This document shows positions 38,607-40,459 of a DNA stretch of 57,120 bases, in pieces. A model generated the notes under the pieces. It made no database searches, was not told the DNA's origin, and saw only the letters and a program-made list of their open reading frames with translations. The DNA is from [Limnothrix rosea] IAM M-220 (lineage in GTDB: Bacteria; Cyanobacteriota; Cyanobacteriia; Cyanobacteriales; MRBY01), in contig NZ_MRBY01000023.1 in NCBI RefSeq assembly GCF_001904615.1, positions 1 to 57,120 on the forward strand, written 5' to 3'. Both the position numbers and the translations under genes were made by a program. Every line of letters begins with the position of its first letter. The first letter of the stretch is position 1.

Positions 38607-39827
38607 GTGGACTATGATTTGGTCATTATTGGGGCGACACGGGCGGGGTTAAATCTTGCTCAAAAGGCGATCGCCGAAGGTCAGCGAGTGGCTTTAATTC
38701 AGCAAGTTTCTCAGCCATTACAGGATATTCAGTTACGGGCTTTAGAACGAGTTTTATTGCATAACGCAATTACAAGTTGGGAACAGTTACAGACAGAAAT
38801 AACGGCGGCGATCGCCCCAACGGATTTTTATGAGCCGCTTGCTAAATTAATCGAAAAAGGTGTGGATGTTGTGCCAGAAAGGGGCAAATTTCACTGGCGA
38901 CCTAACCCTGTTTTTGTGACAGAAAAACGAGAATTTCAAGGAAACAATTATGCGATCGCCACAGGTACAGTTTGGCAACAAACGGATGATCCACGACACT
39001 TAACTTTTCCCGATTTTTTACAGCCACAAACTTGGAAAAAGCTTCGGCCGAAAATTCTTTTTCAGGGCATTACACCTGCGCTGCTAGCCCTTGCCTATAC
39101 CCTTTGCAAACAAGGCAAACAGGTTCAATTTTTACTGGGCTTTCAGTTTTTCAGTGCGGAAGATCAACAACTCACCCATCGTCTCCAAACCTTTCTTGAA
39201 GTTGAAGGCATTGAAATTTATCGGAATCCTGCCGCGTCAGACATAGCTAAACTTCTTAATCGAAAAGATATCAACATTATCGATGGCGATCGCCGACAGG
39301 GAAATATTACCCATTTAAATTTGCCGCCGCGCTGTTTTCGAGGCAAGCAACCATGGCTGAAGGTTAACCATCGACTGCAAGCACCGGCATCTAATATTTA
39401 TGGATGTGGCTCAGTGTTAGGAGGCTATGATTTAACCGAGGTGGCGATCGCCGAAACTAGTTACCTTGCCCAATCAATTACCGCAAAAAAAGCACAACTT
39501 TGTCCCTATCATTTAGTGCCCTATCGATTGTTTGAGCCTTACCCTTTTGACCATGTGGGTTATCAGCCAAAAGATTTACCGAGCGATGGTATTACCCTCG
39601 AAAAAACGTTTTACTTAGATTATGTTGATCAGCATCGTTTCCCCTTCGATGTAACAATTAAGTTGTGGCTGTCTAAAGAAGAAAAAATATTAGGGGCAAC
39701 TGTGCTCGGCGATCGCTCTGGCAAATTGATCTACCATTGCCGAGATTTGATTCAAACCCAGCAAACCTTTAAGTCGTGGCAGAATCTCCTAGAATATTCG
39801 GGGATAGCGGCGGAGATTTGTTGGTAA
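38607..39827 (+). CDS. Degenerate pyridine-nucleotide-disulfide oxidoreductase-like flavoprotein
   Basis: 406 residues from a GTG start, 37% or so shorter in motifs than in length: the outline of a dihydrolipoamide dehydrogenase/mercuric reductase-type protein is present (DYDLVIIGATRAGLN, YAIATGT, IYGCGSVLGGYDLTEVA and a C-terminal dimerisation-like domain), but hallmark residues are changed. The FAD dinucleotide motif is GATRAG rather than GxGxxG; the CxxxxC redox pair is absent; the NAD-binding glycine motif is degenerate (ILFQGITPALLALA); and the GD motif is GS. It may bind flavin without disulfide chemistry, or be non-catalytic. Its TAA overlaps the ATG of the next gene (TAATG), so the two are coupled. 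Confidence 0.7.
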   Translation: MDYDLVIIGATRAGLNLAQKAIAEGQRVALIQQVSQPLQDIQLRALERVLLHNAITSWEQLQTEITAAIAPTDFYEPLAKLIEKGVDVVPERGKFHWRPNPVFVTEKREFQGNNYAIATGTVWQQTDDPRHLTFPDFLQPQTWKKLRPKILFQGITPALLALAYTLCKQGKQVQFLLGFQFFSAEDQQLTHRLQTFLEVEGIEIYRNPAASDIAKLLNRKDINIIDGDRRQGNITHLNLPPRCFRGKQPWLKVNHRLQAPASNIYGCGSVLGGYDLTEVAIAETSYLAQSITAKKAQLCPYHLVPYRLFEPYPFDHVGYQPKDLPSDGITLEKTFYLDYVDQHRFPFDVTIKLWLSKEEKILGATVLGDRSGKLIYHCRDLIQTQQTFKSWQNLLEYSGIAAEICW

Positions 39828-40459
39828 TGGACGCAAAATTTATCGTTTTTGAAGGAATTGACGGGTCAGGTAGCTCCACCCAAGCCGAGCTTTTATATCA
39901 ACATTTTCAGGCGCTAAATATCGCCGCCGTCCTCAGCCCAGAACCCTCTAACGGCATGATCGGTAATCTGGTGCGAGAAGCCCTCCGCCAACGGATTCGT
40001 TTTACAACAGATCCTGTGCAATTTAATCGCCAAATGGCCTATCTGTTTGCTGGCGATCGCCACGACCATTTGTATAACGAAATTGACGGTGTCATGAAAC
40101 TCCTCAAAGCTGGCACACAGGTGATTACGACACGCTACTATTTTTCTTCCCTCGCCTACAACGCCAATAGTGCCGAAGAATACGAATTTATTTATCGTCT
40201 GAATCAAGATTTTCCCAATCCCGATATTGTGTTTTATTTTGATTTGCCCGTAGAAGTTGCTTTAGAGAGAGTCAATCGGCGATCGCACCAAGAAATTTAC
40301 GAGACACAGACTAAACTCACCCAAGTCCGCAACAACTACGCACAAATTTTTGCCGAATATACAGGTCAATGGCTAAAGCTCGATGCCACCCAAGCACCAG
40401 AAAAAATTCACCAAAAAGTTATTAATGCTATTGCTCAGCTTCAATCTGGTCCGGACTAG
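39827..40459 (+). CDS. Thymidylate-kinase-like protein with atypical P-loop
   Basis: 210 residues from the ATG at 39827, which overlaps the upstream stop. Overall similarity to dTMP kinase is clear (KFIVFEGIDGSGSSTQAELL, EPSNGMIGNLVREALR, FYFDLPVEVALERVNRR). The Walker A lysine is replaced: GIDGSGSST has Ser16 where dTMP kinases have GK[ST]T. The DRxxxSxxAYQ block reads TRYYFSSLAYN, losing the aspartate. It may be a specialised subfamily, a different nucleotide kinase or a pseudo-kinase. I do not assign tmk. Its last 32 nt overlap the 3' end of convergent exbD. Confidence 0.75.
   Translation: MDAKFIVFEGIDGSGSSTQAELLYQHFQALNIAAVLSPEPSNGMIGNLVREALRQRIRFTTDPVQFNRQMAYLFAGDRHDHLYNEIDGVMKLLKAGTQVITTRYYFSSLAYNANSAEEYEFIYRLNQDFPNPDIVFYFDLPVEVALERVNRRSHQEIYETQTKLTQVRNNYAQIFAEYTGQWLKLDATQAPEKIHQKVINAIAQLQSGPD

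Follow-up and report, generated by a model that had tools for sequence, protein, structure and literature searches.

The window analyzed here is a stretch of 57,120 bases from [Limnothrix rosea] IAM M-220 (contig NZ_MRBY01000023.1, positions 1-57,120), within which a flavoprotein gene is followed on the same strand by a predicted thymidylate kinase gene (tmk) that overlaps it by one base (Table 1). Both reading frames are intact, and the pair is dense in HIP1 sites (GCGATCGC), with 8 in positions 38607-40459 compared to 73 in the whole window, a density approximately 3.4 times that of the window. One of these sites, at 40279-40286, overlaps the codon of R152, an arginine in the LID of the kinase. 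The initial annotation had described a TAATG-coupled, HIP1-rich pair with open frames, all of which holds. It had further interpreted the missing hallmark residues of the two products as a sign of a joint repurposed function, and it is on this point that we arrive at a different view.

Table 1. Features of the flavoprotein-tmk locus (coordinates are positions in the window)
Feature	Position	Strand	Remarks
Flavoprotein gene	38607..39827	+	GTG start, 406 aa; cysteine-free relative of flavoprotein disulfide reductases
FAD dinucleotide motif GATRAG	38631..38648	+	Middle Gly replaced; sequence
Degraded NAD(P) motif QGITPA	39063..39080	+	Sequence
Gly-Ser for Gly-Asp FAD motif	39408..39413	+	Sequence
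TAATG stop-start overlap	39825..39829	+	TAA 39825-39827 shares a base with ATG 39827-39829; sequence
Predicted dTMP kinase gene (tmk), lysine-free P-loop	39827..40459	+	ATG start, 210 aa
P-loop G10-T18 (GIDGSGSST)	39854..39880	+	Ser16 replaces Lys; sequence and alignment
Thr102-Arg103 replacing the Asp-Arg motif	40130..40135	+	Sequence and alignment, including to Plasmodium TMK
R152 in the LID, candidate catalytic Arg of type II	40280..40282	+	Sequence; Arg in 25/25 lysine-free and 8/13 lysine-bearing clade members

The downstream product resembles a thymidylate kinase (TMK) in profile scores and predicted structure. It scored 153 bits against PF02223 (cut-off, 27 bits; E = 9.5e-45) and 169.9 bits against the dTMP-kinase equivalog TIGR00041, twice the cut-off of 83.25 bits (E = 5e-50). 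The AlphaFold2 model (mean pLDDT, 91.0) has a predicted TMK fold, with thymidylate kinases making up all of the best 50 PDB matches listed and the Plasmodium enzyme at their head (2wwf; TM, 0.83). The thymidylate-kinase-like identity first proposed for it holds, and the two substitutions pointed out at the same time are both present. The P-loop, FEGIDGSGSSTQ (GIDGSGSSTQ), departs from GX4GK[ST] by carrying Ser16 (codon AGC, 39872-39874) in place of the lysine, and the region of the Asp-Arg (DR) motif reads TRYYFSSLAY, with Thr instead of Asp. A type II LID arginine is present at R152, as judged by sequence only.

The upstream product matches the Pyr_redox_2 domain (PF07992; 40.7 bits; cut-off, 26.1 bits; E = 2.5e-10) and reaches the curated cut-off of none of the 18 NCBIfam models listed. 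Its AlphaFold2 model (pLDDT, 87.9) is closest in the PDB to glutathione reductase (3grs; TM, 0.79), with lipoamide dehydrogenase also close. Domain and predicted fold are those of the flavoprotein disulfide reductases, but the CxxxxC pair is missing, as the initial annotation had stated along with the degraded FAD and NAD motifs (GATRAG, QGITPA, and GS for GD), which we also find. The pair was found in none of 26 tmk-linked flavoproteins including that of the window, although the sequence from G268 lacks the N-terminal part where it would lie, and the middle Gly of the FAD motif is replaced in 25/25 that cover the N terminus (the window's and 24 others). The GD motif is kept in 10 of the 26 aligned flavoproteins; it reads GS, GA, or GP in the 5 from the window's genus and is lost too in a Microcystis-like group and others. 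Judging from these motifs, FAD binding by the flavoprotein in the window's genus is doubtful. Among the best 30 flavoprotein homologues from the phylum search, 29 lack CxxxxC by pattern (the exception being G223, locus L083) and most have no tmk within 1.5-kb flanks; the loss of the cysteines therefore belongs to a wider cyanobacterial family. We read the flavoprotein as a cysteine-free protein of the disulfide-reductase fold, separate from the kinase, that, where GD is kept, most likely passes NAD(P)H electrons via FAD straight to a small acceptor.

Searching the phylum with the kinase as query gave a match in 381 of 386 genomes. Thirty of the 386 matched at ≥48% identity with E values of 8.2e-54 or better, and the top match in each remaining genome had an E value of 1.0e-21 or weaker (≤36% identity among the matches listed). 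By these scores, the kinase belongs to a TMK clade that is sharply apart from other cyanobacterial TMKs, of which 25/25 canonical members read keep both the lysine and the DR Asp. The initial annotation had asked whether the same substitutions are conserved across cyanobacteria. For the Asp they are, as it is found in 0 of the 30 clade genomes (27 Thr and 3 Pro), whereas the lysine is absent in only 17 of the 30 and kept in 13. The combination of Ser16 and Thr102 recurs in all 5 other genomes of the window's genus (G001-G005), which rules out an assembly error behind the kinase substitutions. One of these, the draft G004 (200 contigs; locus L093), has frame breaks in both the kinase and flavoprotein genes. 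The Arg of the DR motif, Arg103, is invariant across 21 aligned members, and every one of the 115 rows of a wider TMK set has either Lys or Arg there. In these alignments, the motif losses of the kinase and of the flavoprotein are family traits.

Both genes are under constraint, with the flavoprotein evolving faster. Within the genus, dN/dS (Nei-Gojobori) is 0.07-0.18 for the kinase (10 pairs), which is under purifying selection, and 0.14-0.29 for the flavoprotein (7 pairs, several with dS above 1; 3 more were saturated); for the neighboring pnp it is 0.028 (one pair). Conservation and dN/dS together rule out random decay of the pair, as the initial annotation had argued. It would have given way to a single isolated genome with elevated nonsynonymous rates, and what we see is the same kinase substitutions in 5/5 same-genus genomes, along with the low dN/dS values given above.

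A profile search of the window's genome (estimated completeness, 100%) placed PF02223 at a single site, this kinase, and found no second kinase of the family, which answers in the negative the earlier question of a canonical tmk elsewhere in the genome. ThyX was found and ThyA, which was also looked for, was not; the cell therefore presumably synthesizes dTMP de novo and has to phosphorylate it. PF21448 (T4-type dNMP kinase), a model that we take to cover the dNMPK of Pseudomonas putida, was found in 0 of 13 genomes searched, including that of the window. In 13 of 15 cyanobacterial genomes with a lysine-free kinase of this clade, PF02223 matched once. The other two, G054 and G004, each gave an additional weak match, and the kinase copy of G004 is split by frame breaks into two pieces. 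The initial annotation had named as fatal to its reading any evidence that this is the only, active dTMP kinase with a known lysine-free P-loop; as far as the sequence goes, the kinase is both the sole recognizable one and lysine-free.

Some side observations concern thymidylate metabolism more broadly. The ThyX gene of the window's genome, which lies outside the window (G000:C61:1965-3116; L232:236-1471), is one frame with an insert between two Thy1 halves; the insert starts with CLAGDT, ends with VVVHN before Ser, and is mini-intein-like by eye. In G021 (L233), a second PF02223 match adjoins a gene resembling, by eye, a viperin-like radical-SAM protein. Five genomes with an estimated completeness of ≥92% gave no TMK match, namely, G229, G313, and G376 (one genus; single-protein search) and G007 and G031 (PF02223), and a different dTMP kinase may serve in these.

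Lysine-free TMKs also occur outside the cyanobacteria. We scanned named genomes with two peptide patterns as seeds and read 79 TMKs among the matches listed, 74 of which were used as outside rows. The P-loop lysine is absent in 26 of these 74 among the matches listed, a pattern-seeded count and not a frequency, and lysine is therefore not a constant of the dTMP kinase family. By record title, these 26 comprise 15 spirochaetes, 7 Deltaproteobacteria or Myxococcota, and one each of another proteobacterium, an archaeon, a Nealsonbacterium, and an unplaced bacterium (among the matches listed). The DR Asp is kept in 76 of 77 sequences among the matches listed (the 74 outside rows and 3 canonical cyanobacterial ones), with Ala in the other. 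When 16 genomes with a lysine-free TMK were searched with PF02223, the lysine-free TMK was the only or strongest match in every one: 9 had a single match, and 7 had a second, weaker match (strongest E, 9.3e-20). The lysine-free TRY form is also found in two Bacillus genomes, whose kinases are members of the window kinase's own clade. In Bacillus sp. PS06, the lysine-free tmk has an Orn/Lys/Arg decarboxylase gene on one side and darA on the other, with DUF327, holB, ricT, and yabA coming after darA, and in B. kwashiorkori, the genes downstream of it include darA, holB, and ricT; second PF02223 matches in the two genomes are weak (E values of 2.7e-6 and 5.6e-6). As we take the site beside darA and holB to be the usual place of tmk in Bacillus, the lysine-free enzyme appears to have replaced the normal tmk in situ.

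The history of the lysine was followed on a quick tree of 115 TMKs that was built without the lysine and DR columns and that leaves out the canonical loci of G034, G053, and G057, the distant second hit in G036, L190, and L129 (the same genome as G029, judging from identical coordinates). At the lysine position, the 38-row clade has 13 Lys, 13 Thr, and 12 Ser. On the best 115-TMK tree, lysine presence switches at least 8 times, with a minimum of 3 switches falling inside the 38-row clade, although for the tree as a whole the well-supported branches by themselves require no more than 3. The Bacillus pair, which is lysine free, is the first branch of the clade on this tree, which hints that lysine was regained inside the cyanobacteria; the change counts themselves cannot tell gain from loss.

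We consider it very unlikely that the kinase is a conserved pseudoenzyme and that an unrelated, unrecognized kinase makes dTDP. This would need to be true of many unrelated lineages as well, lysine is present in 13 of the 38 members of the same clade, and the Bacillus gene sits beside darA and holB, presumably the usual place of tmk. In favor of this reading, the kinase has neither the Walker A lysine nor the DR Asp, and a dNMPK is reported to do the work of tmk in P. putida KT2440 (PMC10653934), but PF21448 was found in none of the 13 genomes searched. The sole recognizable dTMP kinase of this genome thus lacks two residues usually regarded as essential to the ATP-binding site, and since related bacteria share this lack, the protein is probably an unusual enzyme that works, neither broken nor repurposed.

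Such an enzyme could work as follows. The subfamily, consisting of cyanobacteria and the two Bacillus members, would dispense with the DR Asp, and many of its lineages, including the window's genus, would do without the Walker A lysine as well. Backbone amides of the P-loop would hold the ATP phosphates, with Ser17 (the K+1 position) and Mg2+ remaining in place, and the charge work of the lysine may pass to the LID arginine R152, in a type II arrangement, aided by R148. Arg103 of the TR motif would position dTMP and the gamma-phosphate. The dTMP phosphate that makes the attack is anionic to begin with, so that no catalytic base would be required. Human TMK has Arg16 at K-3, Asp96 as its Walker B Asp, and Arg97 at D+1, and nucleoside monophosphate kinases can do without a proton acceptor, given the negative charge that the attacking phosphate already carries (PMC9599734). 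This fits a family in which the Asp is lost and the Arg, invariant in the 21 aligned members, is kept. In type II TMKs, it is the LID rather than the P-loop that supplies the catalytic Arg (PMC3169407).

The distribution of R152 is consistent with this role. Residue 152 is Arg in 25 of 25 lysine-free clade rows and in 8 of 13 lysine-bearing ones (Fisher p = 0.0026, uncorrected for kinship), an association that rests on three changes on the tree, with at most 3 pairs on the clade in a tree-aware pair test. Of the 5 lysine-bearing rows without Arg152, 3 carry a P-loop Lys at K-3, a type I-like arrangement. We also searched for compensating columns across the 115 TMKs, although our reading of R152 relies only on the 38-row clade. 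Among the basic columns listed, position 152 stands out, being Lys or Arg in 94% of lysine-free rows versus 41% of other rows; columns 155 and 166 show a similar but smaller difference, whereas column 153 runs in the opposite direction (basic in 8% of lysine-free rows versus 58% of others) because alignment gaps shift the LID columns outside the clade. Outside the clade, with LID columns gap-shifted in this way, R152 occurs in 23 of 26 lysine-free versus 15 of 51 lysine-bearing rows among the matches listed.

Linkage between the two genes was assessed in the 36 cyanobacterial clade loci fetched with flanks (G004, G126, G142, G219, G284, G299, and G342 are not counted), a set that holds near-copies, such as five Microcystis-like rows and five of the window's genus. 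A flavoprotein homologue lies in the fetched tmk flank at 26 of these 36 loci, compared to 0 of 6 canonical loci, and was not found in the fetched flank at the other 10. In G029, G032, and G054, the homologue lies approximately 0.5 to 1.5 kb from tmk; in G142, G284, and G342, outside the 36-locus count, it lies beside tmk by coordinates. Linked loci make up 20 of the 23 lysine-free and 6 of the 13 lysine-bearing cyanobacterial loci (Fisher p = 0.018, uncorrected for kinship). Expressed the other way, 20 of 26 linked and 3 of 10 unlinked loci are lysine free; p becomes 0.064 when the two Bacillus loci are added, and a tree-aware test of lysine loss against linkage has few pairs to draw on, at most 3 on the clade.

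These counts also bear on the proposal of the initial annotation that the two proteins gave up catalysis jointly and now make up a new complex or pathway. The genes are coupled, both products lack hallmark residues, and the lysine-free state goes with linkage (20/23 versus 6/13, uncorrected for kinship). However, the genome has no other PF02223 kinase, lysine-free TMKs are the only or strongest match in 16/16 genomes searched (9 of them without a second), and the Bacillus lysine-free tmk lies beside darA, holB, and ricT. The cysteine pair is missing from the flavoprotein also where the linked kinase has its lysine (6 loci) and at loci whose 1.5-kb flanks contain no tmk, and lysine-free kinases occur without a linked flavoprotein at 3 cyanobacterial loci and in other phyla, with 10 of the 36 clade loci having no flavoprotein in the fetched flank. 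A joint repurposing now seems highly improbable. Least probable of all is an active kinase that needs the flavoprotein as the supplier of a residue or as a redox switch on dTDP synthesis. In its favor, the flavoprotein lies near tmk in 26/36 clade loci versus 0/6 canonical ones; against it, 10 of the 36 are unlinked, 6 of the 26 linked loci have a lysine-bearing kinase, and identity to the window's proteins within the genus is 49-65% for the flavoprotein compared to 77-87% for the kinase.

The likeliest account is therefore an unusual but apparently working dTMP kinase and a cysteine-free flavoprotein with a function of its own, in an inherited gene order. Taken as a whole, we hold it to be quite probable that the locus consists of a working dTMP kinase of an unusual subfamily and a functionally separate flavoprotein and that their linkage would be an inherited cyanobacterial gene order; the catalysis, the role of R152, the activity of the flavoprotein, and the reason for the linkage are what we infer. 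The striking part is likeliest a kinase subfamily that lacks the Walker B Asp and for which the Walker A lysine would be dispensable. A broader proposition, which we advance tentatively as possible, is that an essential P-loop kinase family can spare the lysine of Walker A as well as the Asp of Walker B (the DR motif): in a clade of cyanobacteria and Bacillus, the Asp is absent throughout, and repeated loss of the lysine, perhaps with regain, would have occurred under purifying selection, enabled by the type II LID arginine.

The Walker A lysine is treated as near-indispensable in P-loop ATP enzymes. Motif-based annotation would call lysine-free TMKs dead, which is a warning against naming pseudoenzymes by motif. 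A sole dTMP kinase without Lys and DR Asp, together with its close lysine-bearing relatives, offers natural pairs for testing the role of the lysine, and if both residues are truly dispensable, dTMP kinase would provide a natural test of the purpose that the Walker A lysine serves. As TMK is a drug target too, this variation bears on how general TMK inhibitors can be. Narrow phrase searches of the open-access literature found no description of lysine-free TMKs.

Comparisons with known systems place each protein near, and apart from, well-described enzymes. With glutathione reductase, lipoamide dehydrogenase, and MerA, the flavoprotein shares PF07992, the overall predicted fold, and weak matches to MerA and related NCBIfam models, but it lacks CxxxxC, and its FAD and NAD motifs are altered; its C-terminal end is also shorter than in tmk-linked relatives outside the genus. 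A cysteine-poor protein with the disulfide-reductase fold and without the full cysteine pair is known from mycobacteria, in the LpdA (Rv3303c) type. The kinase shares with type II dTMP kinases of the Escherichia coli and Ehrlichia type the predicted fold, the EGID P-loop frame with Gly after the Asp, the Arg of the DR motif, the LID Arg, and the profile scores, and it differs from them in Ser16 for the P-loop Lys and Thr102 for the DR Asp. Plasmodium TMK (2wwf), its closest structural match and among its best sequence matches, has EIYE in the LID in common with it but, unlike the window kinase, keeps the P-loop Lys and the DR Asp. Human TMK (1e2f) comes just behind the Plasmodium enzyme in structural match and, unlike the window kinase, has a P-loop Arg and is of type I (PMC3169407).
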